Shown: piece after piece, positions 8,313 to 53,027 of the stretch
Position numbering within the stretch: position 1 is the stretch's first letter
Layout: every line of letters begins with the position of its first letter
Source: a virus
Length of the DNA: 64,000 bases
Virus record (IMG/VR): IMGVR_UViG_3300045049_000070
Span: 1 to 64,000 of that record
Reading direction: 5' to 3' (one strand)
Position numbers and translations under genes: made by a program
The notes under the pieces: model-generated
The model's database searches: none
What the model saw: the letters and a program-made list of their open reading frames with translations, nothing else
What the model was told of the DNA's origin: nothing

Positions 8313-9908
8313 ATGGCAAACACCGAGCAACAAGAAGTTTATACCGACAACCAGATCGATCCGAACAAGGGTCCGATGCGCATCGACGGAGAACCTGTAT
8401 TCAGGTCTGAATACGAGAAAATGACGCAAAGCATTCCGTTCTACACGGACAGCTATAAACCATCAATGGATCCTCAGTATCCACCGGAGGTGGAAACCGT
8501 CCACAGCTATGGAGAATCGCGGGGTGCTCCAGTCGATCATGTGATGATGGCTGGAAACCAAGTCTTCGTCGACAAGTTGGCGGAAGGCACAAACATGCGT
8601 GAAGTCAATTTCGCACGTGAGTATTGGGCAGCGCATGGCGTACCCTTTCCGTACGAAATGTGGAAGACCATCGTCAAAGAATATGGTGGACGAATCCCAC
8701 TGACAATTCGTGCGGTACCAGAAGGGATTCTGATCCCGCCACGTAATCCGCTGGTGACCGTGGAGAACAACGGTGGGCGTGCAACTCGGGCCCTAACCAC
8801 ATGGGTAGAGACGATGGGTCTGTCGTATCTTTGGTACATGTCTACTGTTGCAACAAACGACTACTACCTCAGACAAACAATCGGGAAGTATTACGAATTG
8901 AGTGTCGACGCTGGTCTCTACGATCCAGGTCGTTTATTCCGCGACCACGACTTCGGATGGCGTGGCGTTGCTCCAGGAGCGGGTATTTACGGTGGAGGAG
9001 CGCACACGTTCAACTCGTTGGGCACTGACACATTCGGTTCTATCCCGTTCATGTGTTGGCACTATGGTGCGGCACCGAACGAGGTTGGATTCTCGATTCC
9101 GGCTATGGAGCACAGCACGGTTACTTCGTGGGGCAAGGATCGTGAAAACGACGCGTTCCTCAACATGACGGAAATCTACGCACATTCGAGTCGCCCATAT
9201 GCGATGGTGATAGACAGCTATGATCCGGAACGTGCTGTCGAGTGGATCACCAATCCTGATGGACCGATCGTCAAGATCCTGAAGGAGCGCAATGCCATCT
9301 GTGTGTTGCGTCCTGACAGTGGAAATCCGACCGAACTACTTCCAAAGTTGGCACAGATCGTAGCACGGAACGTTGGTTATACGACCAACAAGAAGGGCTA
9401 CAAGATCTTCAACTACTTCCGATTTATCTGGGGTGATGGTATCACGCACGAAGTCATCAATCGTATCGAGAACATGATGGTGTCTATCATGGGCTTCTCA
9501 GCAGAAAACTTCGCCTTTGGCCAAGGCGGAGCCAAACTCCAGTTGGTAGGTCGTGATGATCTCCAGTTCGCATACAAATGCTCGGCTGTGCGTTTAACCC
9601 ATGGTTCGTGGCGGAATGTCTATAAGCAGCCTGCTGGTATCTTGAACAAGAACTCGAAGATGGGTCTGGTTGAAACATTCGTTCTTGACCCAAGTAATTG
9701 GGAGTACGATGACATTTTGTATGTACGTGACATTCGCGACACCGAATCCATCGAAAGACTGAAGCTCGTTCCATTGATGGAAACTGTGTTCGAAAACGGA
9801 ATAGTGGAAAAACGATGGACCATAAAAGAAGTACGAGCGAACACTGAAAGAATCTACAAGAACGCTCCACAAGGTCACAGCGCTGGCGTTTACCCGCCTT
9901 TGGTGTGA
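8313..9908 (+). CDS. nadV: Nicotinamide phosphoribosyltransferase (NAMPT)
   Basis: This 531-residue protein makes NMN from nicotinamide and PRPP. It has the family marks in order: F-Y-T-D-S-Y-K-P-S-M near the N-terminus, an E-H-S-T-V box with the catalytic-type His at residue 267, R-P-D-S-G-N-P at 333-339 for the phosphoribosyl group, and a later W-G-D-G-I phosphate-binding turn. Length fits bacterial and phage NadV. ATG at 8313 is preferred to a TTG at 8307 because AAAGGGG lies at proper distance. Works with the NMNAT at 5093; such pairs in phages rebuild NAD+ after host defences deplete it. Confidence 0.95.
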   Translation: MANTEQQEVYTDNQIDPNKGPMRIDGEPVFRSEYEKMTQSIPFYTDSYKPSMDPQYPPEVETVHSYGESRGAPVDHVMMAGNQVFVDKLAEGTNMREVNFAREYWAAHGVPFPYEMWKTIVKEYGGRIPLTIRAVPEGILIPPRNPLVTVENNGGRATRALTTWVETMGLSYLWYMSTVATNDYYLRQTIGKYYELSVDAGLYDPGRLFRDHDFGWRGVAPGAGIYGGGAHTFNSLGTDTFGSIPFMCWHYGAAPNEVGFSIPAMEHSTVTSWGKDRENDAFLNMTEIYAHSSRPYAMVIDSYDPERAVEWITNPDGPIVKILKERNAICVLRPDSGNPTELLPKLAQIVARNVGYTTNKKGYKIFNYFRFIWGDGITHEVINRIENMMVSIMGFSAENFAFGQGGAKLQLVGRDDLQFAYKCSAVRLTHGSWRNVYKQPAGILNKNSKMGLVETFVLDPSNWEYDDILYVRDIRDTESIERLKLVPLMETVFENGIVEKRWTIKEVRANTERIYKNAPQGHSAGVYPPLV

Positions 9909-13063: not shown

Positions 13064-13558
13064 CTACAGTTTGATTGACGCTAATGACTCTCTTACGTCA
13101 TTTAGCTTGAATGTTGACCCTGTTCGTTGTGCCCATTTTGTGAATCGTTTTGGCGACCAGAATTTCTTTTGTTGATTTGGTGCCAATCCAAACACAGTGC
13201 TGAGTACGACGCTAACGTGGCTGTCCTTCTCATTTACAGTTTCACCCACCTTGATGGGCGGAAAGTCTACAACTTGGCTATTCTTTTCAATATGTCTCGG
13301 AAATGATTGTCGGATATATTCAGCATATCTGTCGATTGCCAGTCCGAGTTTGATATTCTTGGTCGCCGCCGTCGCTGCGGTCCTCACCTTGAATGTCTTT
13401 TCCCCTTTTATCGCAGCAATTGTTTGAACGTCGACCCCATCGTCACTCAGTTCTTGAAATCCGCATTGCCCATTTCCACGTCGATAACAACATTTTACGG
13501 GACACAAACTGACCGTCAGTTCTAGATGCTCAAGTCCGCAATACACCTCAGACACCAT
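13064..13558 (-). CDS. Cys-rich N-terminal hypothetical protein (164 aa)
   Basis: ATG at 13558 chosen because AAAGGA sits just upstream and a TTG at 13573 would lengthen the overlap. Residues about 17-35 hold a cluster C-P-V-K-C-C-Y-R-R-G-N-G-Q-C that could bind zinc. The middle is Lys/Ala/Thr-rich helix and the end is basic. A DNA-binding or regulatory role is conceivable from the zinc-like cluster and the resolvase neighbour. Confidence 0.7.
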   Translation of the reverse strand: MVSEVYCGLEHLELTVSLCPVKCCYRRGNGQCGFQELSDDGVDVQTIAAIKGEKTFKVRTAATAATKNIKLGLAIDRYAEYIRQSFPRHIEKNSQVVDFPPIKVGETVNEKDSHVSVVLSTVFGLAPNQQKKFWSPKRFTKWAQRTGSTFKLNDVRESLASIKL

Positions 13559-14419: not shown

Positions 14420-15691
14420 GTGCCTTTTCAACGCCGCTCGAACAATAAAATCCTTCCGCCAAATAGTCGCACAGCGGATGTGGCTCGGAAGACGCTGGAT
14501 GCTCTGGTTCCAGTCCAACAGCGAAAATATGCGAACGCATTCAAAGCAAATGGATATGAAACGTTGGTCTACAGTAGATTGAAACACGGAACTCCGTGTT
14601 CATGTCAATCTTCTAGACGAGCACAGGCCAGCATTCTTGACGAGCAAACAGGAAAATTGAAGAAAGGCCAGATGGAGAAAATATTGACCGGAGGACTATC
14701 TTTCCGTGTCAATCCATACGGCGTAAAAGAACCGATGCGTGACGATCTGCGTGCCCCTCGTGGTGGTCAATCTCAACCCCGAGACGAGCAGATTTATGAC
14801 GTGCTAGACAACAGTAAACCAGTTGCTGATTGGGAATTAGAGGACGACGTACTCGATAATCCTAATGCGACAGTCACTAGGGCAGCGAATGGTGACGAAG
14901 ATGATGCACAGGCTGATATTGTTGATCAAACAGCAGATGATGCTAGCGAGCTGGTGGACATTGAAGCGTATGCTAATGACAGCAAATGCGCAGTTTGTTT
15001 CGGGACCGGATATGTCGGTGGATTTACGTTGCTGAACGGATTGCGCTTAGTGATATGCACACAATGGCCTGCCATCTCCAATCTGGTGGGAACTATTGAA
15101 CCAAACCGTGTTCCGCATTCATTCTTTACGACAGATGTGTCGTTTACCGTCACGTTACCAAAAGGAGTGATTGGTGTTGATGCATTCAGATTGTGGAACA
15201 ACGATTTGCAGATTCACCCACTGACCATCACAATTGACGGTCTTTCGTATTCGATGGACTTGTTAAGAGCGTTTTGTGACGGACGTCCGCATACGTTCAG
15301 ATTCCAGTTTGAACGCCTGACGTATTTCACGCACGTAGAGCTCCAATTCAATTTGTCGGCCATTCCTGCTCTATTCGATTTCCCACGCGGGACGTTTGGA
15401 GCAAACATGCAGAACGTGGAAAATTTGGAGGACATGCAGTTGTATGCGAGTCCAGAGATTCCAAACATCGAACGTGAAGACATGCTGGTCGAATGTACGT
15501 TGGGGAAGGCATTGGTCGTCAGTTCAGTAACTGATTGGAAGACCAACAAACGTGATATTCTGGGCTGGGACGTGAACGTGCGTGCGCTCCAACCATCAGA
15601 ACTATTGAACTTGCTCCCACGTCGTCACCCAACGCATCAGAAATCCACTTACATGATAAGAGACAATATTGATGGTGGACGGAGAACGTAA
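14420..15691 (+). CDS. Probable virion protein with zinc motifs (423 aa)
   Basis: GTG start with CAGGAG ten bases upstream. The N-terminal 140 residues are basic with C-S-C (residues 60-62), a central Asp-rich linker (about 140-185), then C-A-V-C-F-G-T-G-Y, together a likely CxC...CxxC zinc site. The rest is beta-rich with structural-protein character. It opens the long virion/accessory operon and is preceded by the TAATTTGATT motif. I take it for a structural protein from context; no named family. Confidence 0.65.
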   Translation: MPFQRRSNNKILPPNSRTADVARKTLDALVPVQQRKYANAFKANGYETLVYSRLKHGTPCSCQSSRRAQASILDEQTGKLKKGQMEKILTGGLSFRVNPYGVKEPMRDDLRAPRGGQSQPRDEQIYDVLDNSKPVADWELEDDVLDNPNATVTRAANGDEDDAQADIVDQTADDASELVDIEAYANDSKCAVCFGTGYVGGFTLLNGLRLVICTQWPAISNLVGTIEPNRVPHSFFTTDVSFTVTLPKGVIGVDAFRLWNNDLQIHPLTITIDGLSYSMDLLRAFCDGRPHTFRFQFERLTYFTHVELQFNLSAIPALFDFPRGTFGANMQNVENLEDMQLYASPEIPNIEREDMLVECTLGKALVVSSVTDWKTNKRDILGWDVNVRALQPSELLNLLPRRHPTHQKSTYMIRDNIDGGRRT

Positions 15692-16167
15692 TGCCAATCA
15701 CGAACAAGACTGTAGATTTGTGGTCACAAGTTCAACTGAAGGTCGATGGACGTCCTGTCAAAAGCGGTGATTTCTATGACATCAGTTATGATGTTTATCT
15801 GGATAACGAGTATGTCGGTTATTTGATCTCGGACTACGCATTGAATACTACTGTCCAGAATTTCTTAGACAAATTGGCTCCAGATCAATCACGATTAGCT
15901 GATGTTATGTCTGCTGTTCCTTCACGATATAGATTCAACTACTATTATCTGAACTACCTAGAAATCAAAAGAAAGTGGCAAGGTCAGGGAATAGGTGGAA
16001 TCGCGTTGCAGAAATGGTTTTCCAAGTTGAAGTCCCCAGCGATGGTTGGATTAACGCCCGCAAAGATTGCGAATGTCCCAGTAGATATCGTCCGTAAGTT
16101 CTATCTTAAGAATGGATTCAAGAAAGTAAATCCGCATTATTTTGTCACTTTCATTAAGAGCAAATAG
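15691..16167 (+). CDS. GNAT-family N-acetyltransferase with tag-like N-terminus
   Basis: Residues about 80-110 contain L-E-I-K-R-K-W-Q-G-Q-G-I-G, the acetyl-CoA pyrophosphate loop (QxxGxG/A), and near residue 145 F-Y-L-K-N-G-F-K-K matches the C-terminal motif B of GNATs. Substrate unknown. It begins M-P-I-T-N-K, one of a series of related N-termini in this region. Starts by TAATG overlap with the virion gene. Confidence 0.8.
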   Translation: MPITNKTVDLWSQVQLKVDGRPVKSGDFYDISYDVYLDNEYVGYLISDYALNTTVQNFLDKLAPDQSRLADVMSAVPSRYRFNYYYLNYLEIKRKWQGQGIGGIALQKWFSKLKSPAMVGLTPAKIANVPVDIVRKFYLKNGFKKVNPHYFVTFIKSK

Positions 16168-16525: not shown

Positions 16526-17107
16526 ATGGCGATCACTAATCGTCCAGAGACTGCTGAGACCTATAAAGACTATATTGAGATTCTGAAAAGGAAATATAAA
16601 CTGCGAGTATTAGGTGATGGAGCGTTCGGAACAGTGTTCCAGCACCCCACCTTGAAGAACGTAGCAGTGAAGGTCTACAGACAAGTGAAATGGATGTCAG
16701 CAACCAAATGGTTGGAATGGTGCAAGAAGCATCCGGAGAATCCTTACGTTCCTAAGATCTATAAGGTTGATTCTCTCCAAATAGAACAAGAAGGCTATCA
16801 ACGATACCTGCATAACGTGGTGTTTATGGAGAAACTATCTCGCGTTTCATCCACCTTTGTCGACGAGGTTCTTCAGAAAACAGGAGCATCAACCCATGTC
16901 TTGTATAAGACAGTTGATGAAGGAAGACTTGTGTACGAATTCTATTCGGATTCACGCAAGAATGTTCGTACTCTGAAAGACAAGAAATTGGCAGAAGTGC
17001 TATTGGCGATAGATCAGTTTGGCGATCAGTCTGATGGAACAGATTTGCGATATTCAAATTTCCTTCGTCGGGATCAACAATTGGTGTTCGTTGATCCTGT
17101 GAGGTAA
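16526..17107 (+). CDS. Protein-kinase-like protein with MAITNR tag (193 aa)
   Basis: Residues 30-38 G-D-G-A-F-G-T-V-F form a glycine-rich ATP loop, and A-V-K puts the ATP lysine at residue 49. Near the end D-L-R-Y-S-N-F-L (D173, N178) and F-V-D-P (D190) correspond to the catalytic loop and the metal-binding Asp. At 193 residues it is a compact, probably minimal kinase-fold enzyme; an inactive relative or small-molecule kinase is possible. It opens M-A-I-T-N-R. Confidence 0.7.
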   Translation: MAITNRPETAETYKDYIEILKRKYKLRVLGDGAFGTVFQHPTLKNVAVKVYRQVKWMSATKWLEWCKKHPENPYVPKIYKVDSLQIEQEGYQRYLHNVVFMEKLSRVSSTFVDEVLQKTGASTHVLYKTVDEGRLVYEFYSDSRKNVRTLKDKKLAEVLLAIDQFGDQSDGTDLRYSNFLRRDQQLVFVDPVR

Positions 17108-18423: not shown

Positions 18424-18858
18424 ATGAAGATCAGACTTCAAGCCGCTGTTCGTCTTAAGAAAGTTTTAGCCGCAGCACTAAAATCCTTCCCTACGTTAAG
18501 CAAATATCCGACAATCGTGAAAGCAGTCGAGGAAATTGGACTCGACAACAACAGCAGAAAAGACTCTTATTATGGACGCGCCGAGTGGTATCTTACCAAA
18601 GGGAAATATAAGCCTGCAGAATTAGAAGCAACATGCAAAGAACTTTCCGGACAGAATGTCAGTAAGCTCAAGAATCCAAAGGCTATTGAGATGTATGGAA
18701 AGAACGGAAACTTCTTAGAAGTTCTGGCTATAGGCGAAGATAGGGATCAAAGAGATGTTATGTCCCGTTCACCGAAATACAAACGTGTGTTTGACTTTCT
18801 AGCCGATGTATTCGACGGTGCAGAGTGTCCTATCCACTCGCTATTCAGAGGTGAATAA
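18424..18858 (+). CDS. Hypothetical protein, R-L-K type N-terminus (144 aa)
   Basis: Opens M-K-I-R-L-Q-A-A-V-R-L-K-K-V-L-A, an amphipathic basic helix shared in form with 18859, 19134, 22317 and 23433. The rest is a soluble helical domain with no motif I know. One base before the next gene. Confidence 0.75.
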   Translation: MKIRLQAAVRLKKVLAAALKSFPTLSKYPTIVKAVEEIGLDNNSRKDSYYGRAEWYLTKGKYKPAELEATCKELSGQNVSKLKNPKAIEMYGKNGNFLEVLAIGEDRDQRDVMSRSPKYKRVFDFLADVFDGAECPIHSLFRGE

Positions 18859-19134
18859 ATGAGGATTCAAGCTGTCGCACGGCTTAAAGAAGCCGCTGGT
18901 GTTCTAGACGTTAAACAGAAACAGAAGATACAGAGTGGTCTAGCACAGATATCTGAAGGAATGGCGATCATCAGAGTTGGCCTTAATACGTTGAAACCAA
19001 TTGTTGATGTTCTCAAGAAGAATGATGGAAGTTCTTACGTCGATCATGCAAGTGTCACTAACTCACTCAAAGATTTTGAGTTTGTTTTCAAAGCACTTAA
19101 AGACGCGATTAAAGACGACGACAAAGGCATCTAA
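18859..19134 (+). CDS. Hypothetical protein, R-L-K type N-terminus (91 aa)
   Basis: Opens M-R-I-Q-A-V-A-R-L-K-E-A-A-G, the same amphipathic N-terminal helix as its neighbours. The rest is helical with an acidic tail. Stop overlaps the next start (TAATG). Confidence 0.75.
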   Translation: MRIQAVARLKEAAGVLDVKQKQKIQSGLAQISEGMAIIRVGLNTLKPIVDVLKKNDGSSYVDHASVTNSLKDFEFVFKALKDAIKDDDKGI

Positions 19135-19919
19135 TGAAACTGCAAGCACTTGCGCGCCTGTTGTCGCTAGCAGGTGCTTATACCGAAGACAGACTGACAC
19201 GCGAACAAGCAAAGAAACTAGCGCTTCAGTTACGTCCGCTAATCAAACGTCATTGTCAGGGTTTCCAGCTAGCGGGCTCATATCGTCGCGGCAAGACTGA
19301 TATTGGTGACTTAGATTTTGTGGTAGTCAATTGCGATATGGCTGCCTTGCTCTCTGACTTGGTTGAACATGCTGCGGCAACAGAAGCTCCTCGTGCAGGA
19401 TCCGGAATGTTGACCGTCACTGTGCCGTTCGGAAAGAAGAGTATTCAAGTCGAGTTTGTAAACGTCAAGCCTCGCGCGATAGGTAGCGGATTGCTTCATA
19501 GTACGGGAGGTGCAGATTTCAACAAAGGTCTGCGCAGTTACGCCAAGAGTAAGGGAATGCTGCTCAATCAGCATGGTCTGTTCCGTGCTGATAACAAGAG
19601 ATTCTTAGCCGGACGTACTGAAGAAGATGTGTTCGACAAGCTAGGGTGGGCGTTCGTTCCACCTAAAGAACGTGGCTTCAGTTTTATGACCTTGAAGCCC
19701 AAATATCTTATCGATCCATACAAGAATAACCTGTTGTTGAAGAAACCTCAAGGTGAAGGTAAAGTATGGAAGGTCAAATCCAAATCCGATCCAAACAAGC
19801 TCTATTTCGTGACACTAAAACCGAATGGCAAATGGACATGCACATGTCCGCAGTTTGTGTTCAGAAAAGTAGACTGCAAACACATAGATCTAGTTAAAGA
19901 GAGAACAGGTACCAAATGA
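19134..19919 (+). CDS. Family X DNA polymerase-like nucleotidyltransferase with SWIM zinc finger
   Basis: Residues 48-62 read G-S-Y-R-R-G-K-T-D-I-G-D-L-D-F, the pol-beta type GSxRRGK...GDxD site with catalytic D59 and D61; the third acid appears as E107 in I-Q-V-E-F, where Asp is usual. G-G-A-D-F-N-K-G-L-R further on fits the family's substrate-binding region. The C-terminus has C236-T-C238...C248-K-H250, a SWIM zinc-binding pattern. At 261 residues it is a minimal PolX: no 8-kDa lyase helices are obvious. It starts M-K-L-Q-A-L-A-R-L-L-S-L-A-G, the local tag. Possible roles are gap filling, end processing or nucleotidylation of host targets. Confidence 0.82.
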   Translation: MKLQALARLLSLAGAYTEDRLTREQAKKLALQLRPLIKRHCQGFQLAGSYRRGKTDIGDLDFVVVNCDMAALLSDLVEHAAATEAPRAGSGMLTVTVPFGKKSIQVEFVNVKPRAIGSGLLHSTGGADFNKGLRSYAKSKGMLLNQHGLFRADNKRFLAGRTEEDVFDKLGWAFVPPKERGFSFMTLKPKYLIDPYKNNLLLKKPQGEGKVWKVKSKSDPNKLYFVTLKPNGKWTCTCPQFVFRKVDCKHIDLVKERTGTK

Positions 19920-20520: not shown

Positions 20521-22317
20521 ATGATGTTATCAAATGCTTTTCTAGCAGCTCTTGCAGCGGCCGGAAATCAGAATTTCACCTATTATGTAGATTCGGTAAA
20601 CGGGAACGATGCGAACAACGGTACATCTAAAGCATCTGCCTTCCAATCGCTGAGCAGCGTTCCGTTGCTAACCACCGGTCAATCAGTTGGACTGGCATGT
20701 GGATCGTACTGGCGTGGATATCTTCTAGACGTCAATAGTTCTGGTAACATCATCTTTGGATCGTACGGAACAGGTGCCCCTCCGGTAATGGATGGAGCAG
20801 TCGTCGTTACTGGGTGGACACAGAACGGAACATATTCTGATATCTACCAAGTTTCGTTCACACGTGACAATACGAATCCGACGACCACCGAACTACTTGG
20901 TCTGTGGATAGATGGTATACGCCCACGGTTTGCCTCGTCATTGGCTGATTTGGAAGCTAACGGTGGATGGTATGCAGATTCACGTATCTCCCTGACAACA
21001 AACGTGTACGTGAAAACGGTGCCTAACTCGCACACGATTGAGATCAGCAAATACGATTGGGCGATCGGATGCTACAACGCAGCGACTCCATGCTACGTAA
21101 ATGGTCCAATCGAAATGAAGCGTTATCTGGCGCATTACAACGCGCTCCAGATGGGCCCAGGACAGGCTCAACAATTCATTGTTAGAGATGGAACTATCCA
21201 CCATACGGTTACTCAAGCGTCATTGACACAAGATTTCATCTTGACTGAGCTGGATATACCGTCTGATCCAAATCTGATGGTCGCCTATCGTGATAATCCT
21301 GTTGGTTTTACACCAGTGATAAAACGTGGATTTGCCATCTTTGATCAAGCTACGTTAGGCGGCCAGAATTTCACAGTTCATGCAATTTCTGAGCACAGCG
21401 GATCAACAGATATCCAGAGTCTGGATGCAGAACAGTGCGGCTTTGTTGGAATAAATGGATTGGCCCATCTGTCTGCATCAAGTGGGCATCTAGAAGGAAT
21501 CTATTGTCACAACGTTGTCAGTGACGGAATATTCTTGGGTCCTGGGTCAACGGTGACTAGACTACTGATGTGGGACGATCAAGTCTCTAACTATAACGGC
21601 GGTGTCGCTGCAATGACACAAATCCACGCCGTTGTAAACGCATCTGCTTCTATCACTGACTGCGCTGTGTGGGGAAAGAAAGGTGCTCAGATGGTAATGG
21701 ACACCGTAGGAACAGTTCCGTTACCAATGTCGCACACTGTGCTATCTTCTGACAATGGTCAAGCGATCAACGTTACAAGTGGATCAATTGCCGTCAACTT
21801 CTGTGTCATTGACACAAACGATACCAACATACAGATTTGGGATGGATCTGATCCAGGATCGTACACTGGAGATTATAACGTATGGGCGTGGTGGCGCAAT
21901 CCGTCTGGCTTCCGACCCGGTGCCGTAAAAGGACAATGGAAAGGCTCTCTGATATTCCACCTAAATGATTGGCAAGCAGCGTCTGGTCAGGATGCTCATA
22001 GTGTAGGCCTTGATTCTGCCGATCAGGTGAGTGGCAATGCCAATGCATTCTGGTTAGGAATGGCTCTAGGAACTGGTGGACCTGAAGTTGGTGACTTCCG
22101 AATCAATCCAAATGCCAGAGTAATAGGTGGTGACGGAACGGCGTACATTGGAACGTTCACTGATGGAACTCCAATCACACAAGCGGGTCCTCAAACTCAC
22201 TGGGATTGGAACGCCAGAGCAATCGCATCTGGTCCTCCAACACATATACCACAGCTGCCAATAACTCTGTCTCAGATGCGACAGTATATTCAAACCCCAA
22301 AATTATGGACCTTCTGA
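20521..22317 (+). CDS. Beta-helix tail-spike-like protein (598 aa)
   Basis: ATG at 20521, five bases after the previous stop; the longer in-frame opening at 20347 lies in the fibre gene and is unlikely. N-terminus Y-Y-V-D-S-V-N-G-N-D-A-N-N-G-T is the usual entry to right-handed parallel beta-helix (pectin-lyase fold) proteins, followed by short repeated strands rich in Gly, Asn, Ser and Thr. Such proteins are phage tail spikes that bind or cleave surface polysaccharide. Catalytic residues are not identifiable by eye. Confidence 0.75.
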   Translation: MMLSNAFLAALAAAGNQNFTYYVDSVNGNDANNGTSKASAFQSLSSVPLLTTGQSVGLACGSYWRGYLLDVNSSGNIIFGSYGTGAPPVMDGAVVVTGWTQNGTYSDIYQVSFTRDNTNPTTTELLGLWIDGIRPRFASSLADLEANGGWYADSRISLTTNVYVKTVPNSHTIEISKYDWAIGCYNAATPCYVNGPIEMKRYLAHYNALQMGPGQAQQFIVRDGTIHHTVTQASLTQDFILTELDIPSDPNLMVAYRDNPVGFTPVIKRGFAIFDQATLGGQNFTVHAISEHSGSTDIQSLDAEQCGFVGINGLAHLSASSGHLEGIYCHNVVSDGIFLGPGSTVTRLLMWDDQVSNYNGGVAAMTQIHAVVNASASITDCAVWGKKGAQMVMDTVGTVPLPMSHTVLSSDNGQAINVTSGSIAVNFCVIDTNDTNIQIWDGSDPGSYTGDYNVWAWWRNPSGFRPGAVKGQWKGSLIFHLNDWQAASGQDAHSVGLDSADQVSGNANAFWLGMALGTGGPEVGDFRINPNARVIGGDGTAYIGTFTDGTPITQAGPQTHWDWNARAIASGPPTHIPQLPITLSQMRQYIQTPKLWTF

Positions 22318-22775
22318 TGAAGATCAATGCGCCCAATAGACTGAAGGAAATTGCAGTCGAAATCAAACCTGAGAATCGTGGCAAGTTGCACAAGCGGCTT
22401 GGTATTCCAGAAGGAGAGACAATTCCAATGTCTCGTCTACATTCTGAACTCAAGAAAGCCAAGGACAGCGGCGATACTGAGCTCGAAAAGATGGTGAACT
22501 TCGCCATAAATTTTCACCACAAGGCCTCTGTGCAAAAGGCGGCAAAGAAACGCCTTCGTGATTACTTAGTGTCGTTCATTCCAGAACATTGGCCTGGAAC
22601 GACTGCGGTCCTAGAAGACGATTGTGTGATCGTGAAAGGACCAAAAGCACAGTTGGATAAGATCTATAAAGAATACCATGAAGATGGCCATCCAGGCGAA
22701 CTCGCTTGCTATCGCTATCCGAATTATGTGTCGATAACATCGACAGGCCGCAAAATGGGCGGAATGCCATGGTGA
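22317..22775 (+). CDS. Hypothetical protein, R-L-K type N-terminus (152 aa)
   Basis: ATG at 22317 overlaps the tail-spike stop; upstream in-frame sequence is inside that gene. Near the start K-I-N-A-P-N-R-L-K-E-I-A combines both local tag types. The remaining domain is basic and mixed alpha/beta; ends G-G-M-P-W. No family recognised. Confidence 0.7.
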   Translation: MKINAPNRLKEIAVEIKPENRGKLHKRLGIPEGETIPMSRLHSELKKAKDSGDTELEKMVNFAINFHHKASVQKAAKKRLRDYLVSFIPEHWPGTTAVLEDDCVIVKGPKAQLDKIYKEYHEDGHPGELACYRYPNYVSITSTGRKMGGMPW

Positions 22776-23432: not shown

Positions 23433-23912
23433 ATGGCTATCACCAAAATCCATGCTGCTGAACGTTTGAAACAAACGGCTCTTACCGACACAAAAGGAGC
23501 AGCTGCGTTTGTACAGAAGGTCTTTGACAAATATCAGCTTGGTCTTAAAGTCAAAGCCGACAGAAATCCAGATAATGAGACTGAACCGGCATTAGCTGTA
23601 TCCGGCCGATACAAAGGGCAGGAAATTGAGTTCAACATCATTCTCATGGCGGACGGTAAGCGGCCGGATGTAGTTTTTGATGTCTTCGCATGGCCAGAAA
23701 TGTCCAATGAATCACCAGATGATTATGAGGCAATGGACGTTCTAATGCACAACGGCATGAAAAAGAAAAGCGAACGTCGTGCGTTGGTAAAAGGTCTAAA
23801 TCAAGCAGCTGGGACGCTCAGAGATTCTGCGAATAGACTTGTAGACTACGCCGATTGGCTTGAACGAGTATCTAAAGCTATGGCGGACATTGGAAGTAAG
23901 TACGGGAAATAA
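23433..23912 (+). CDS. Hypothetical tagged protein (159 aa)
   Basis: Starts M-A-I-T-K-I-H-A-A-E-R-L-K-Q-T-A, which joins the two tag forms of this region in one N-terminus. The remaining domain is mixed alpha/beta with a helical C-terminus. Directly abuts the previous stop. No family recognised. Confidence 0.75.
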   Translation: MAITKIHAAERLKQTALTDTKGAAAFVQKVFDKYQLGLKVKADRNPDNETEPALAVSGRYKGQEIEFNIILMADGKRPDVVFDVFAWPEMSNESPDDYEAMDVLMHNGMKKKSERRALVKGLNQAAGTLRDSANRLVDYADWLERVSKAMADIGSKYGK

Positions 23913-26495: not shown

Positions 26496-26768
26496 ATGGC
26501 GATCATAAATCGTGTCGAAGCCGTTCGAAAGCGCATTTACGAGTTCGTCCCCGGAAGACCAAAATTCTTTTACGCAGACGAAGTCGATAGCATCATTAAC
26601 AATCTAAAAACAAAAGGCAAGGCAGAGCTGCTACATAATGCGTTAAGCGACTTTTTCGATTTTAGTGTCGACAGGAGTAATCTAAAGAATCCAAAGAAAG
26701 CTTCTGATCAACTCTGCAAAGACGTTGGGAAAACTGTCTGGTACTCAGAAATAGACGATGATCACTAA
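26496..26768 (+). CDS. Hypothetical tagged protein (90 aa)
   Basis: ATG at 26496 (M-A-I-I-N-R-V-E-A) is chosen over an in-frame ATG at 26466 that sits in the structural gene. After the tag comes a small helical charged domain. Overlaps the next start by 11 bases. Function unknown. Confidence 0.7.
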   Translation: MAIINRVEAVRKRIYEFVPGRPKFFYADEVDSIINNLKTKGKAELLHNALSDFFDFSVDRSNLKNPKKASDQLCKDVGKTVWYSEIDDDH

Positions 26769-27519
26769 CCGTATACAAGCGGCTGCTTTATACAGATTGG
26801 TCGACAGCATGCCTTCAGTAACTGTCTACCACGGAACCACTGAGAAAGAAGCCGAAAGAGGACTGAAAAATCCTGATAACCTAAATACAAACTGGGCACA
26901 AGGTCTCCTGCCTCCAAATAGTCATCATCTAACAACTGACTTGAATCTAGCGAAAGGATATGCATCATCTGGTGTTCCTAGAAAATATTTCAAGGAATCA
27001 GAGAAGCGAATGAATGATGCTATTGATGACGTTCAACGAACAGCTAGAGATTACGAAAAGAAGCTAGGATTGGATCCAGATTCTAAGATGTGGTCCGTGT
27101 GGAAAGAACAATCTCCACACACCTTTAAGAAGAAATATCCGAATGTATTCAAGCTTGGAGAAGTTGAATACGAGAAGCGTGTCAAGCAGCTAATGAAATT
27201 CTCTAAAAGTCTTTATATAGCTTTCGATGACAAAGTGGAGCAAAAGAAACTTGAAGACGTTCGCGGTCAAGGTGGATATGTTCTATCGTTTACCCTTACT
27301 CCAAAGAAGGTGCTCGCATTTTCAAAACCCTTTGACTCTCTTGACAAGTATGAACTATTTAGTGCCCTTCAGCGAATGAAGGGCAAGTTCCAGTGTATCT
27401 ATTTTCCCAGTTCATATTTGCGTCCAGAAAATATGAAAGGTGGTCGTGTCAAGAGAAGTGATTACTATATTGTAGTAGGAACAAAGCTTCTCTCAAATCA
27501 GAAGAGAATAGACTTATGA
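26758..27519 (+). CDS. ADP-ribosyltransferase-like protein with tag (253 aa)
   Basis: After M-I-T-N-R-I-Q-A-A-A, residues 21-28 read V-T-V-Y-H-G-T-T, then E-A-E-R-G-L, H-H-L-T-T-D-L, A-K-G-Y-A-S-S and, much later, G-Y-V-L-S-F-T-L. The order Y-H-G-T / S-T strand / A..YA is that of the ART-RES-type NAD-binding fold, where the His is the first catalytic residue. The last catalytic Glu is not obvious, so activity is unproven. T4 Alt, a virion-injected ADP-ribosyltransferase, is the analogy. ATGA-type overlap with the next gene. Confidence 0.55.
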   Translation: MITNRIQAAALYRLVDSMPSVTVYHGTTEKEAERGLKNPDNLNTNWAQGLLPPNSHHLTTDLNLAKGYASSGVPRKYFKESEKRMNDAIDDVQRTARDYEKKLGLDPDSKMWSVWKEQSPHTFKKKYPNVFKLGEVEYEKRVKQLMKFSKSLYIAFDDKVEQKKLEDVRGQGGYVLSFTLTPKKVLAFSKPFDSLDKYELFSALQRMKGKFQCIYFPSSYLRPENMKGGRVKRSDYYIVVGTKLLSNQKRIDL

Positions 27520-28166
27520 CGATCACCAATCGAATCGTTGCTGTCCCGAAAGAAGCTAATCCAAACAGCAAAGAGTGGAAAGCCGGATACTCTGCCGGTC
27601 GCAATGGGAAGAGTAGCAAATCACCTCACGTAAAAGGCACTCAAAAGGAAATCGACTGGACGGATGGATGGATAACTGGTGATCATGAACGTAATAGTCC
27701 ACCTCCAAAATCAACTAAGGATGTTTTGGGATATTCGATACAAGATCGCTTAGAACGTTTACGACAACGTCGTGGGGATCCTCCAGATGTCTGGTACACG
27801 CATGAAACAGCGGTTCCGTCCAAAAGCGTTTACTACGTTCTCAGACGATTATTCAAGACACTATTTCCACACGGAGGAGCTGGCGACGTTCCGCCGTATG
27901 GAACAAACATATGTCATGGGCGAGTGGCAGAAGCAATCAAACGTAGGAACTACAATCCAGAAGACAAAATCTGGCTGTATGGCGCGTCTGGTGGTGATGT
28001 CATGCATTCGGTCCTGACAGACGAACATAATCGAGTGATCCTCGATCCTTGGGCTGGAAGCGGAAACGCTTTTGGTGGACGAGATGGTTATGGCAAACCC
28101 GGTGACATGCTTGACTGTTTATGGGTCGAAACAGTGGCCGGACTTCAAGACGAATTTGGTATTTAA
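27516..28166 (+). CDS. Tagged RMF-like/papain-like protein (216 aa)
   Basis: Begins M-T-I-T-N-R-I-V-A. Residues about 21-56 hold W-K-A-G-Y-S-A-G-R-N-G-K...W-T-D-G-W-I-T-G, a pattern like ribosome modulation factor. The C-terminal half has N-I-C133-H-G-R, V-M-H164-S-V-L and V-I-L-D177-P-W, a spacing that fits the Cys-His-Asp triad of papain-like or transglutaminase-like folds seen in toxins and peptidases. Both readings are from short motifs and need a structural check. Confidence 0.45.
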   Translation: MTITNRIVAVPKEANPNSKEWKAGYSAGRNGKSSKSPHVKGTQKEIDWTDGWITGDHERNSPPPKSTKDVLGYSIQDRLERLRQRRGDPPDVWYTHETAVPSKSVYYVLRRLFKTLFPHGGAGDVPPYGTNICHGRVAEAIKRRNYNPEDKIWLYGASGGDVMHSVLTDEHNRVILDPWAGSGNAFGGRDGYGKPGDMLDCLWVETVAGLQDEFGI

Positions 28167-28317: not shown

Positions 28318-28629
28318 ATGGCAATCTCAGAACGTATAACGTCAGCTATTGGAATAACTCCTGAACAGAAGCAGATACAAACCAAGTTCCTGACGTTGCT
28401 GAAGCGTAGTAATAGAGGGATCAAGGCAGAACAAGCAGGTAGTGTTTGGGAGGTCTACTACACTTCGAAAGACCACAGCATCACCTTTGGTGACGACTTG
28501 CTGAAGTTCTCGGTAAAGAACGGTATAACCATATCAATCATAAAAGACTCTACTGTAATCAAACTCAGTGCGATCTTCTCTATGGATAGAAACCAAATGC
28601 AAGAGCTTATAGATAACATCAGTGACTAA
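28318..28629 (+). CDS. Hypothetical tagged protein (103 aa)
   Basis: Starts M-A-I-S-E-R-I-T-S-A, a variant of the local tag. The rest is an alpha/beta domain (V-W-E-V-Y-Y, L-L-K-F-S-V, V-I-K-L-S-A). Directly followed by the HNH gene with no gap. Function unknown. Confidence 0.75.
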   Translation: MAISERITSAIGITPEQKQIQTKFLTLLKRSNRGIKAEQAGSVWEVYYTSKDHSITFGDDLLKFSVKNGITISIIKDSTVIKLSAIFSMDRNQMQELIDNISD

Positions 28630-30940: not shown

Positions 30941-31297
30941 ATGGCAATCACAAACAAAGTCACTGCAAAGCCTTCGCAGGAAACTGCTCTCAGTTGGGCA
31001 GATATGGCGAAAACGGTTAACACTGTCGTTAATGAACTCCGCGCGGGCGGAGTCAAGTTGAAGAAAGAGAATGAACCTGTACGCGGGCCTTCTTACTACA
31101 GACAGTTCTATATCTGCTTGTCAGGTGAGGAATCGATTCCAAAAATCTTGAAAGCACGTGGATTCAAGACTGATAAACTTGGGACGATGGGAAAGCGAGT
31201 AGGCTCGTATGGAGTGGCTGTAGACTACGATCCCAACGATAACATGATTGAAATCGTCATTACAGATTTCGACGGTCCACAAGAAGAACCTTTCTGA
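30941..31297 (+). CDS. Hypothetical tagged protein (118 aa)
   Basis: Begins M-A-I-T-N-K-V-T-A after AAGGAC. The rest is an alpha/beta domain ending in an acidic tail (D-F-D-G-P-Q-E-E). No family recognised. Confidence 0.75.
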   Translation: MAITNKVTAKPSQETALSWADMAKTVNTVVNELRAGGVKLKKENEPVRGPSYYRQFYICLSGEESIPKILKARGFKTDKLGTMGKRVGSYGVAVDYDPNDNMIEIVITDFDGPQEEPF

Positions 31298-31299
31298 TC

Positions 31300-31521
31300 A
31301 TGGCAATCAAGAACCGTATTCAAGCTACTCCAGGCGAGCTCACTGGATGGTTCTTGCCTGTAGACAGTGTTAGCGACATCCAACGTGAACGCATTACAGA
31401 ATTCGTAAGGCGAGCAAAGGGTGCTCACTTCATCAACATCTTGATGCGTATCGACGGTCAAGACGAGAATATTGAGGCCGACTGGCTCAGTCGTCTCGAT
31501 CCAAGTACTTCCATCGTATAA
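31300..31521 (+). CDS. Tagged paralogue A (73 aa)
   Basis: Begins M-A-I-K-N-R-I-Q-A-T. Similar along its length to the 31811 product: shared G-W-F-L, R-A-K-G-A-H-F-I, R-I-D-G-Q-D-E and D-W-L-S-R-L-D-P. The pair arose by duplication with the 31548 gene between them. Function unknown. Confidence 0.75.
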   Translation: MAIKNRIQATPGELTGWFLPVDSVSDIQRERITEFVRRAKGAHFINILMRIDGQDENIEADWLSRLDPSTSIV

Positions 31522-31547: not shown

Positions 31548-31811
31548 ATGCAACGCCTCCAACCAAACGGCAGACTGTGGAACTTCGTTATCGCAGTAGA
31601 CCAGTTGATAGCCACATGGTTTGGAGCGTGGCCTGACGAGACATTGAGCAGTTATGCTTGGCGTCTTGAGCGTGCTGGTGACCCCGAAGGTCACTACTGG
31701 CGTGTACAGATCGACGACATCTTTGAGCATTTGTTTGGTGTACGGGATCATTGTGAAAACGCACATGCAAGTCACATGATACGTAATTCCATCCCTCCTG
31801 AGGAGCGCTAA
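31548..31811 (+). CDS. Conserved small phage protein, 'DETLSSYAWR' type (87 aa)
   Basis: Contains P-D-E-T-L-S-S-Y-A-W-R-L and, later, F-G-V-R-D-H-C-E-N-A, ending I-P-P-E-E-R. This order (DETxSxxAxR...W...DHC...PPE.R) is what I expect of a small conserved phage protein common in Proteobacteria phages, of unknown role. No tag. Overlaps the next start by TAATG. Confidence 0.7.
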   Translation: MQRLQPNGRLWNFVIAVDQLIATWFGAWPDETLSSYAWRLERAGDPEGHYWRVQIDDIFEHLFGVRDHCENAHASHMIRNSIPPEER

Positions 31812-32035
31812 TGGCGATCAAGAACAGAATTCAAGCCAGTACCAGGATTAAGGGCTGGTTTCTAAAAGCAACAGATGATCAAGAGTACGCGCAGCGAATT
31901 AACTCGATCATCAACTGGTTGAAGGGTGCACACTTCATTGATCTTGCGGTTCGAATCAATGGGAAAGATGAACGAGAACAAGGCGATTGGGTCAAGTACC
32001 TAGAGCCAGTGTTTGGAGAAGAAGATGTCACTTAA
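31811..32035 (+). CDS. Tagged paralogue B (74 aa)
   Basis: Begins M-A-I-K-N-R-I-Q-A-S, and matches the 31300 product (G-W-F-L, K-G-A-H-F-I, R-I-N-G-K-D-E, D-W-V-K-Y-L-E-P). The DNA encoding the two tags uses different synonymous codons, so the peptide is what is conserved. Overlaps the Nudix gene by 11 bases. Confidence 0.75.
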   Translation: MAIKNRIQASTRIKGWFLKATDDQEYAQRINSIINWLKGAHFIDLAVRINGKDEREQGDWVKYLEPVFGEEDVT

Positions 32036-32486
32036 GAAAGTAGAAGCAGCACAAATTAGCGCGGCCGGGATTATCTTTGTGCATGATGGACAGTTCTTGT
32101 TAATCATGCGTGCGCGTGATGTTGTCTCTCCATCTGTGTGGTGCGGAGCTGGTGGAAAGATCGAACCGGGCGAAACACCGGAACAGGCCGCCATACGCGA
32201 GTCTGAGGAAGAAATTGGGTTTCCATCTGATTTGCCAATGGAACTGATTCCGCTATATGTGTTCAATAGCGACAGTCTGGTATTTCATAACTATATCGGA
32301 TGGCTAAAGGGTGACCGATTTGACCCTAAGCTGAATTGGGAGTCAGATGGATGGGCATGGTTCACGATGGAGAATCTGCCACAGAATGGATTACACTTCG
32401 GCTTTCAGGCTATACTGTCTGATCCAATGGCAGCGTCCTTGTTGAACAGAACTATTGAAGGTTCCGTACTAAAGAGAGCAGAATGA
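32025..32486 (+). CDS. Nudix hydrolase with tag-like N-terminus (153 aa)
   Basis: Nudix box at residues 44-66: G44-K-I-E-P-G-E50, seven residues, then R58-E-S-E-E-E-I-G65. Such enzymes cleave nucleoside diphosphates linked to another group (damaged dNTPs, ADP-ribose, mRNA caps); the substrate is not readable. Start M-S-L-K-K-V-E-A-A-Q echoes the local tag. ATG at 32025 is used, with GGAGAAG before it. Distinct from the Nudix domain at 5093. Confidence 0.88.
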   Translation: MSLKKVEAAQISAAGIIFVHDGQFLLIMRARDVVSPSVWCGAGGKIEPGETPEQAAIRESEEEIGFPSDLPMELIPLYVFNSDSLVFHNYIGWLKGDRFDPKLNWESDGWAWFTMENLPQNGLHFGFQAILSDPMAASLLNRTIEGSVLKRAE

Positions 32487-32716
32487 TGCCCATCTCAAAT
32501 AGAGTCGAAGCTGTAGGCGAATCTCCAGAAGAAACAAAGGAGTGGGAAGCCATCGCCAAGTTTGTGGCGCGCGGCAAAGGAAGTGCCGTCAAGGACAAAG
32601 GCAAGAAAGTAATGTCTACGTATGACAGACTTCCAAAGTCAAATCCCACTATTCACGAGATCGAAGTTAATGGAACTCGATACGCCATTGTGAAAATCAT
32701 CAGTCTGAGTAACTAA
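32483..32716 (+). CDS. Hypothetical tagged protein (77 aa)
   Basis: ATG-ATG at 32483/32486 overlapping the Nudix stop, then P-I-S-N-R-V-E-A-V. Lys/Gly-rich middle and a short beta hairpin at the end (R-Y-A-I-V-K-I-I). No family recognised. Confidence 0.7.
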   Translation: MMPISNRVEAVGESPEETKEWEAIAKFVARGKGSAVKDKGKKVMSTYDRLPKSNPTIHEIEVNGTRYAIVKIISLSN

Positions 32717-32729
32717 GCACTAAAGCATC

Positions 32730-33116
32730 ATGACTATAACAAATCGCATAACGGCATCTCCAGCAACGCTGGAAGAACGTACCAACATTCCAAACGATCC
32801 GATTAGTGTTGCTCGTGCTCATTGGTTTATCGCTCATTTCCAGAACGGTCTTGAACGACAACTTCATTTGGCTTTCGATCCGTCCTTGACCGGACACGAC
32901 AGAATCGTGTTCAAGAGGAAAGGAAATCAGCTGAACGCTGAATCGATTGTGGCATGGCTAGAACATGCGGGGCTGAAGTTTCGTCCTGCCCGTATGAGCG
33001 TCGGAATCCCATATGCCATGATAAGCGATCGCCAATCTATCGACGGCCAATACATCTACTTCTCTGTCACATACTATGCAACACAAGGCACAGTGACTGT
33101 CTCGTGCCAATGGTGA
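32730..33116 (+). CDS. Hypothetical tagged protein (128 aa)
   Basis: Begins M-T-I-T-N-R-I-T-A-S. An alpha/beta domain follows with A-R-A-H-W-F-I-A-H-F and a beta-rich C-terminus. Last clear member of the tagged series in this window. Confidence 0.75.
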   Translation: MTITNRITASPATLEERTNIPNDPISVARAHWFIAHFQNGLERQLHLAFDPSLTGHDRIVFKRKGNQLNAESIVAWLEHAGLKFRPARMSVGIPYAMISDRQSIDGQYIYFSVTYYATQGTVTVSCQW

Positions 33117-51250: not shown

Positions 51251-52474
51251 GTGACTAGAGCCCGCTTTAGAACTGAGCGGACGTTTGAAGACACGCAGAA
51301 CTTCTCCAAAGAACCAAGAGCCGAAGACATCGTAGATGTTCTGAAGTATCCACCAAAAGATTGGCTTACTGTTAGAGCAGTAGGTCCAGTAGTGGCAAAT
51401 GGTGGACATTGGGTAAATACGGAGCCTCCTGCAAAGGACAAGAAGACGAAAGCCTTCTATGTTCCTTGTCTTGCGTTCGATCCAAAAACAGAAGAACGAG
51501 ATAGCACCAAATATTGTGCGTGGTGCGCTGATACAAGCGGTTGGGTTCGTCCTGCTCTCGACTACTGGCAGAACTTCATTGTGCGTGAACTGGAAGAGAA
51601 CATGCCTGCGAAGTTGAAAGAGCCAACGAAGAAGGAACGGAAAACTGGCTTCAAGGAAAAGGGCAGCAACTCCTGGACTCCTTGCAAAGCTGGTCGTATT
51701 ACACCCGGCTTCATGCGTGACTTGAAGAAGTCAGCGTCTCTTAATCGTCACAAAAACAAAGACGGAGAGAAGAAGGCATATGCTCTGAGCCATGTTAAGT
51801 GCGGTGTAGATCTGGAAATCATGTATGACCCGGATGAAGCACCAGCCAAGAAGTATTCGCTGCAGAAGGGTGAGAAGCGCACGCCGCTTACAGAAGAACA
51901 GCAAGAATATCTATTGCAGCCCATCGAGAATCTTAACATTACGTTTAAGGCAGAAGCTGAAGCAGATGGCGATGAAGAAAAACTTGCCAAATTGCTAAAA
52001 GCACTCGAAAAGAAGTGGACGTCTGAGCACGAAGGTTGGCTCAAGCGTATGAAGAAGAAATGGAAGTCCAAGTTCGGATCAGAGGGTGACGACGAGGACG
52101 ATGACGATGATGACGATGATGAGGACGATGATGATCGTCCTAAGGGTAAAGGCAAGAAGGGTAAGAAGTCTGCAGGCAAGAAATCTAGTCGAGACGAAGA
52201 CGATGACGACGATTCCGACGAGGATGATGACGACAACGAATTCGACTCAGACAAGAAGTCTTCAAAGAAGTCCAAGAAGTCAAAGCATCGTGATGATGAA
52301 GACGATGACGAAGATGACGATGAAGATTCCGACGACGATGACGACGAAGATGAGGACGACGAGCCCAAGTCTAAGAAGAAGTCGAAGAAGGGCAAAAAGT
52401 CCAAGAAGTCACGTGACGACGATGATGACGAGGACGAAGATGACGATGATGACGACGAAGACGATGATGACTGA
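51251..52474 (+). CDS. Candidate ssDNA-binding protein with D/K-block tail (407 aa)
   Basis: GTG start with AAGGAAATAG before it. Residues 1 to about 275 are folded, with Y-C-A-W-C (about residue 95) as a possible zinc pair and many aromatic and Lys residues. The last about 130 residues alternate long Asp runs with Lys/Ser blocks. The domain plus a very acidic C-terminal tail, together with the recombinase two genes on, recalls T4 gp32-type SSBs, whose acidic tail recruits partners. No OB-fold signature is provable by eye. Confidence 0.5.
   Translation: MTRARFRTERTFEDTQNFSKEPRAEDIVDVLKYPPKDWLTVRAVGPVVANGGHWVNTEPPAKDKKTKAFYVPCLAFDPKTEERDSTKYCAWCADTSGWVRPALDYWQNFIVRELEENMPAKLKEPTKKERKTGFKEKGSNSWTPCKAGRITPGFMRDLKKSASLNRHKNKDGEKKAYALSHVKCGVDLEIMYDPDEAPAKKYSLQKGEKRTPLTEEQQEYLLQPIENLNITFKAEAEADGDEEKLAKLLKALEKKWTSEHEGWLKRMKKKWKSKFGSEGDDEDDDDDDDDEDDDDRPKGKGKKGKKSAGKKSSRDEDDDDDSDEDDDDNEFDSDKKSSKKSKKSKHRDDEDDDEDDDEDSDDDDDEDEDDEPKSKKKSKKGKKSKKSRDDDDDEDEDDDDDDEDDDD
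52193..52227 (+). repeat. Direct repeat unit shared with the 52536 gene
   Basis: A 35-base stretch coding D-E-D-D-D-D-D-S-D-E-D in this gene is identical to 52791-52825 in the next gene, and most of it recurs at 52944-52969. Identity at the DNA level, including silent positions, points to recent duplication or repeat exchange. Confidence 0.8.
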
Positions 52475-52535
52475 GTCGACAACCAATCAATCTGAAATTA
52501 ACCACAATCACGTAAACTCCGGAGTTTAACACCAA

Positions 52536-53027
52536 ATGGCAAAGATGGATAAAGCAGTCGCGAAGAAGTTTGAAGAAGTCGACGAGAAGCTGGAAGCTTT
52601 GAAGAAGGCTCTTGCTAAACTCGCAAAGGGTGGCAAGGCCGACAAGAAGGGTAAGGCGGATGACGACGAGGATGACGAAGACTTCGACCTCGACGAAGAC
52701 GACGACGTAGAAGAGTCTGGAAAGAAGGGCAAGAAAGCCGCAAAGAAGGCAGCTAAAAAGGCTGGAAAGAAAGGCGGTAAGAAAGCCAAGGACGAAGACG
52801 ATGACGACGATTCCGACGAGGATGACGACGACTCTGATGATGACGAGGACGACGAGCCAAAAGGCAAGAAGGGTAAGAAGGCTGCCAAGAAAGCTGCTAA
52901 GAAGGGTGGCAAGAAGGGCAAAAAGTCTGATGACGACGATGACGATGACGACGATTCCGACGAGGATGACGACGGAGACGACGATGATGACGACTCCGAT
53001 GATGACTTCGACGATGACGACGAGTAA
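52536..53027 (+). CDS. Polyampholyte protein of alternating Asp and Lys blocks (163 aa)
   Basis: Residues 1-35 form an amphipathic helix (F-E-E-V-D-E-K-L-E-A-L-K-K-A-L-A-K-L). After that come alternating acidic blocks (D/E/S) and basic blocks (G/K/A, such as G-K-K-G-K-K-A-A-K-K). There is no folded domain. Such block polyampholytes can phase separate or bind DNA and partners electrostatically. It sits between the SSB candidate and the recombinase. Confidence 0.75.
   Translation: MAKMDKAVAKKFEEVDEKLEALKKALAKLAKGGKADKKGKADDDEDDEDFDLDEDDDVEESGKKGKKAAKKAAKKAGKKGGKKAKDEDDDDDSDEDDDDSDDDEDDEPKGKKGKKAAKKAAKKGGKKGKKSDDDDDDDDDSDEDDDGDDDDDDSDDDFDDDDE
52791..52825 (+). repeat. Direct repeat unit, second copy
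   Basis: Identical over 35 bases to 52193-52227; a shorter third copy is at 52944-52969. The repeat encodes the acidic D-D-D-D-S-D-E-D-D blocks. Confidence 0.8.

Follow-up and report, generated by a model that had tools for sequence, protein, structure and literature searches.

A family-X polymerase core fused to a SWIM zinc finger in a jumbo-phage-like genome: a candidate packaged repair enzyme

Introduction

Why would a phage fuse a minimal DNA polymerase of family X (PolX) to a SWIM zinc finger and place at its N-terminus a short sequence that it shares with unrelated neighbours? This question is raised by a gene at positions 19134-19919 (plus strand) of the window, that is, the stretch of 64,000 bases that we analysed out of the 72,411-base virus record IMGVR_UViG_3300045049_000070. 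A first-pass annotation, made from the sequence alone, had described the product as a PolX-SWIM fusion, had taken its N-terminal tag to suggest delivery, and had offered as activities either gap filling in the incoming genome or toxin-type nucleotidylation of host proteins or RNA. Here we report that profiles, predicted fold and a homologue support the fusion, and that gap filling appears to be the best supported of the activities offered. We propose, with a probability of about one in two, that the protein is a virion-packaged, injected gap-filling polymerase in which the SWIM finger stands in for the missing DNA-binding domains.

A family-X polymerase core

The open reading frame (ORF) of 261 residues was confirmed; its ATG overlaps the stop codon of the preceding gene as TAATG. 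Profiles and a homologue (see below) divide the product into the tag, PolX palm and thumb, a linker and the SWIM finger. The Pfam profiles DNA_pol_B_palm (PF14792; residues 23–71, expect value (E) 1.4e-5) and DNA_pol_B_thumb (PF14791; residues 120–180, E 2.2e-20) both scored above their curated cut-offs. The top match among PDB sequences was the PolX of Thermus thermophilus (3b0x/3au2), which aligns in palm and thumb at residues 42–180 (E 6.8e-17) and shares the DxD and TG motifs; it was followed by Pol mu, Pol lambda, terminal deoxynucleotidyltransferase, Pol beta and the PolX of African swine fever virus (ASFV). An AlphaFold model built with a 9-sequence alignment had a predicted local distance difference test score (pLDDT) of 84.5, mostly above 90 at residues 20–190 and about 65–85 in the SWIM part, and its lowest-confidence region was the tag. 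The best Foldseek match to this model was Pol lambda (E 3.3e-14, template-modelling score 0.57 across 178 columns), and among viruses the PolX proteins of giant viruses and ASFV O174L matched it. Sequence and model thus both indicate a bona fide family-X polymerase core with palm and thumb.

The palm (approximately residues 20–115, 19191-19478; PF14792, alignment with 3b0x, pLDDT mostly above 90) contains the pol-beta-type site recognised in the first-pass annotation, namely G48-S-Y-R-R-G53 and G58-D-L-D-F62, with the catalytic D59-L-D61 at 19308-19316. Absence of a nucleotidyltransferase (NTase) fold, or a pair D59/D61 that varied among homologues, had been named as findings that would speak against the assignment; the model has the fold, and the pair is kept in all PolX compared, the Rhizobium-phage copies excepted (E/E/S). 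The third acid, E107 (19452-19454), aligns as earlier supposed and is Glu in the homologue too; these two proteins are the only ones with Glu among the PolX compared, the other active-looking ones having Asp. In canonical PolX the three acids are Asp or, in rare cases, Glu (PMC9226535). With D59, D61 and E107 the protein is, by this rule, a canonical and probably active PolX.

In the thumb (residues 116–180, 19479-19673; PF14791), which contains H122-S-T-G125, N130 and R134, comparison of the sites with other PolX showed that T124, G125, N130 and R134 are kept. By alignment these four residues match positions of Pol beta that we take to contact the deoxynucleoside triphosphate (dNTP) and the template. 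The numbering of those contacts rests partly on PMC9226535. His-Ser (H122-S123) stands in place of the steric-gate pair Tyr-Phe, a change also seen in two other phage PolX.

Only about 22 residues precede the first NTase helix, the C-terminal part is the SWIM module, and Pfam gave no match to the 8-kDa/helix-hairpin-helix (HhH) or PHP domains. The core is therefore about the size of ASFV PolX, and the SWIM finger comes in addition to it. ASFV PolX (O174L) likewise consists of palm and thumb only (profile match at residues 28–180, E 4e-6; fold match, 2e-5). In contrast, bacterial and archaeal PolX have the 8-kDa/HhH and PHP domains and differ from the phage protein in its SWIM finger, its Glu as third acid and its tag.

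Two single-query scans for further viral PolX gave no match, and a DNA-pattern scan returned 15 contigs with a usable PolX in 6. The phage PolX compared (IME392, Ab1-TPeters, Carin-5, YerA41 and Rhizobium phages) share the core and, in some cases, the HSTG motif, but they are 24–28% identical to the PolX-SWIM protein, keep an N-terminal DNA-binding extension and have neither SWIM finger nor tag. The annotated PolX of the Rhizobium phages (L003:5479-6435, RHph_TM21B) has lost the acidic triad (E/E/S) and, for that reason, is probably not a polymerase.

The SWIM finger and a conserved fusion

The palm and thumb are connected by a linker (residues 181–208, 19674-19757), which lies between the Pfam domains and has pLDDT values of 54–69 in its worst blocks, to the SWIM module (residues 209–254, 19758-19895). 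The profile PF04434 covers residues 224–251 (E 4.6e-5; 23.3 bits against a cut-off of 19.6), and the predicted zinc ligands C236, C238, C248 and H250 form a CxC-x9-CxH pattern, which bears out the C-terminal CxC...CxH that had been noted.

A syntenic homologue whose domains follow the same order is encoded at L001:7980-8753, in a second viral contig of 248,884 bases. It is 73% identical at residues 16–261; identity is highest in the thumb (85%) and lowest in the tag (55%), and the SWIM module is 76% identical with all ligands retained. The proportion of synonymous differences (pS) is about 0.80, which is saturated, whereas that of nonsynonymous differences (pN) is 0.19 overall and 0.14 in the SWIM module. 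The low pN, also in the SWIM part, therefore indicates from the sequence comparison that the entire fusion is under purifying selection. A chance or misread ORF was ruled out by the homologue, by this selection and by the profile matches. A role as a defence-system protein was also rejected, as PADLOC gave no match.

The pairing had been called unusual, and the collections searched support this: with two PolX-SWIM sequences known here (n=2), we found no further fusion in the phage, plasmid, viral-contig and species-genome collections, where scans by peptide pattern could miss rare relatives, and no published account in the literature. The searches returned only stand-alone SWIM proteins (L032, ANMV-1) and plain PolX. 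The fusion would represent a new way for a minimal polymerase to obtain a grip on DNA. A partial parallel is the PolX of the giant algal virus PgV-16T, in which the viral core carries a further repair module at its C-terminus (PMC5537341); that module is not a SWIM finger.

The N-terminal tag and the phage lineage

The first 15 residues, MKLQALARLLSLAGA (19134-19178), constitute a tag whose motif is common to the neighbouring genes and to Achromobacter phage Motura, and which we infer to be a capsid-targeting propeptide. The tags of the cluster read M-x-I-x-N-R-I-x-A or M-x-I-Q-A-x-A-R-L. For counting, the cluster was defined as the 31 ORFs at 15.0–33.3 kb around a head-tail connector gene, 65 ORFs outside it served for comparison, and expectations were obtained from shuffles. 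The ARL form (M..I.A..RL) occurred in 4 of the 31 cluster ORFs against 0.09 expected, and in 1/65 outside. The NRIxA form (M....[NR][IV].A) was found in 10 genuine cases (0.09 expected; 0/65 outside), an eleventh match at 22206 being left out for its over-extended start. Including the mixed form at 23433, approximately 15 cluster ORFs are tagged. In the corresponding region of Motura (L028:11538-23750), 13 of 26 genes are tagged against 0.1 expected; a near-ARL pattern had been drawn up from the window before the Motura genes were read. The tag is thus real and the earlier suggestion of delivery is strongly strengthened by these counts and by Motura, although delivery itself is deduced. All 13 Motura proteins, annotated as hypothetical, begin M-x-I-Q-A-x-A-R-L-x-A.

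Codons vary widely for identical tag residues. This result excluded a shared DNA element at the gene starts and indicates that the tag is selected as a peptide. In addition, the PolX-SWIM homologue bears the other tag form, MPILQRILAG, so that the tag behaves as a module and tag and enzyme evolve separately.

The phage itself appears to be a jumbo phage of the Sarumanvirus/Moturavirus type, and the 72-kb record is probably part of a larger genome. The connector gene within the tag cluster (PHROG match, 4.2e-52) and the portal gene of a sister contig encode proteins that match those of Motura and BcepSauron at 37–43% identity. The sister contig also encodes a major capsid protein homologous to BcepSauron gp82 (52%) and, at L018:12600-13193, a head maturation protease homologous to gp85 (41%). 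A scaffold-like protein adjoining the capsid gene contains the string NRIVA, as in the tags, and approximately 45–55 residues into the capsid protein lies a conserved LAA, a plausible but putative cut site. In PaBG, a relative, the capsid protein is about 20% shorter after maturation (PMC7412058).

A proposed packaged repair polymerase and its alternatives

By analogy with the T4 internal proteins, the tag is probably a capsid-targeting propeptide. In T4, the first 10 residues of internal protein III are all that is needed to direct unrelated proteins to the head, where the prohead protease cuts this peptide off, and the internal proteins leave the head with the DNA (PMC9026906); phage SPN3US, too, packages and ejects many head proteins (PMC10052503). 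The targeting sequences of T4 IPI–III and Alt resemble the present tags as a short common N-terminus on unrelated proteins in a lineage with a protease gene (PMC9026906), but here the motif is another one, the putative cut follows Ala rather than Glu, and the system is a predicted one. The tag would bring PolX-SWIM into the core of the prohead and would then be removed by the head maturation protease after the short [ILV]-x-A motif, putatively after LQA at residue 5. The mature enzyme would then be ejected into the cell together with the phage DNA, where, before phage genes are expressed, it might fill short gaps in the incoming genome or extend its 3′ ends. The SWIM finger would provide the hold on DNA for which ordinary PolX rely on the 8-kDa and helix-hairpin-helix domains, and the product could be sealed by a host or phage ligase.

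Several points weigh against this proposal. SWIM fingers are able to bind proteins and not DNA alone, and Glu in place of Asp as the third acid may reduce catalytic activity, as in Pol beta mutants. No tagged ligase or apurinic/apyrimidinic (AP) endonuclease was recognised near the gene, and no PolX was detected in Motura and BcepSauron, so the lineage can do without one. The regular expressions used for counting tags were fixed only after the sequences had been read. Finally, Glu precedes the cut made by the T4, phiKZ and SPN3US proteases (PMC10052503, PMC9026906), whereas the tags here have Ala at the equivalent position of the putative cut.

An ordinary intracellular PolX for repair of replicating phage DNA, with the tag serving another role such as docking to phage assembly or translation, seems unlikely. 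Untagged PolX do sit among replication genes elsewhere, in Cobetia phage Carin-5 (nrdA, thyA) and in IME392 (ligase). However, the tag is borne by about 15 neighbours with unrelated bodies beside a head-tail connector gene, and likewise in Motura, and no PolX domain requires such a tag. We also consider an end-processing transferase rather improbable; such an enzyme would protect or join the ends of the incoming genome by adding nucleotides, which could be ribonucleotides, at their 3′ termini. The replaced steric gate, shared with two other phage PolX, and the missing gap-recognising 8-kDa domain would fit such an enzyme, but N130 and R134 are retained, there is no sign of template independence, and an influence of His-Ser on sugar choice is a guess.

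The toxin-type activity offered in the first-pass annotation, in which an injected NTase would AMPylate or nucleotidylate a host protein or tRNA, is similarly improbable, perhaps slightly more so. It draws on the Glu at the third acid and on the company of the gene, which includes a clear tagged Nudix hydrolase, tagged proteins linked weakly or by eye to ADP-ribosyltransferases (ARTs) and ribosome modulation factor (RMF), and GNAT-like and kinase-like neighbours with the first six tag residues only. Phages and conjugative elements also have polyvalent injected proteins, which bring mixed effector enzymes into the cell with the DNA, combining Pol-beta NTases with ARTs, kinases and GNATs (PMC5512222). 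In that survey the injected Pol-beta NTases are minimal palm-only folds, and those activities are domains of one long protein, unlike the separate small tagged proteins and the true PolX found here. By the definition in PMC5512222 the presence of a thumb excludes membership of the minimal toxin-type NTases. The toxin-type role is disfavoured because the thumb of a template-dependent polymerase is kept (E 2.2e-20) along with the dNTP and template residues N130, R134 and TG; moreover, the top Foldseek matches are DNA polymerases. Least probable is a weak or dead polymerase site in a protein that serves in the head chiefly to bind DNA as a core component or to condense the genome. The Rhizobium-phage homologues do lack the triad, and in about one quarter of PolX from prokaryotes it is incomplete (PMC9226535). 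Here, however, the three acids follow the canonical rule (PMC9226535), the dNTP site is preserved, and the protein has no PHP nuclease that would explain why a dead polymerase was kept.

The packaged, injected gap-filling polymerase therefore has its closest counterpart in ASFV, whose minimal PolX is listed in the virion nucleoid and has been proposed to act in repair before replication (PMC12172490). ASFV PolX differs in having neither SWIM finger nor tag and in belonging to a virus of animals and arthropods, and packaging of the phage protein is putative. If injected, PolX-SWIM would be the first phage-delivered repair polymerase as far as we found. Slightly more tentatively, we suggest that a previously undescribed capsid-targeting signal ([ILV]-x-A, with R-L after or N-R before it) loads a fast-changing set of small effectors into the head in this jumbo-phage lineage. 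One cargo would be PolX-SWIM, which would repair or complete the genome as it enters, ahead of any phage gene expression. If the tag is such a signal, the injected cargo of the lineage, including proteins of unknown function, could be read from genome sequence.

Tagged neighbours and other observations

The remaining tagged genes of the cluster all lie on the plus strand. Two precede the polymerase gene, MKIRLQAAVRLKKV at 18424-18858 and MRIQAVARLKEAAG at 18859-19134, the stop codon of the latter overlapping the PolX start. Downstream are MKINAPNRLKEIAV at 22317-22775, with an orthologue at L001:8750 (MTIRAIARLKELAA); MAITKIHAAERLKQTA at 23433-23912, which combines both tag forms; and MAIINRVEAVRK at 26496-26768. 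The product of 26758-27519 (MITNRIQAAALYR) has an ART-like YHGTT motif by eye only, and neither profiles nor PDB sequences confirmed the assignment; the tagged Motura protein at 13145 also has a YHGTT motif resembling ADP-ribosyltransferases. The tag motif also begins the products of 28318-28629 (MAISERITSA), 30941-31297 (MAITNKVTAKP), 31300-31521 (MAIKNRIQATP), 31811-32035 (MAIKNRIQAST), 32486-32716 (MPISNRVEAVG) and 32730-33116 (MTITNRITASP), and a tagged Nudix hydrolase (MSLKKVEAAQ; PF00293, E 4.6e-18) is encoded at 32025-32486.

Weak matches to RMF (PF04957), just below the cut-off, were found for two tagged proteins, one at 27516-28166 (MTITNRIVAVP; E 7.8e-4) and one in Motura (L028:13669-13905, E 1.7e-5). 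It is possible that these proteins from two phages are injected silencers of host ribosomes. A T7-kinase-like protein at 16526-17107 (PHROG 15752, 8.8e-12) and a GNAT-like protein at 15691-16167 start with MAITNR and MPITNK, respectively, which are the first six tag residues without the I-x-A core.

Tag-like sequences were also seen elsewhere. The protein of L014:16373-17176 (minus strand), encoded close to the sister phage's portal gene and outside the main cargo cluster, is tagged MSIENRVTSA and has an ART-like LYHFSP...G by eye. A protein at G001:C1:87162 (L022:9163 on), by eye a truncated haemoglobin, has the tag-like start MAIRRILAGNEDKTLYERLGG, which may reflect coincidence or contig chimerism. 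Several proteins have ARLREIA-like elements in their interior, which would fit tag or cut sites within proteins as well, and two unrelated proteins (L001:5700-6428 and 8959-9543) share the internal string SFVGDEEADT. Finally, at 51251-53027 of the window, two adjacent ORFs have long Asp/Lys-rich low-complexity C-terminal tails (DDDEDDD, KKGKK).
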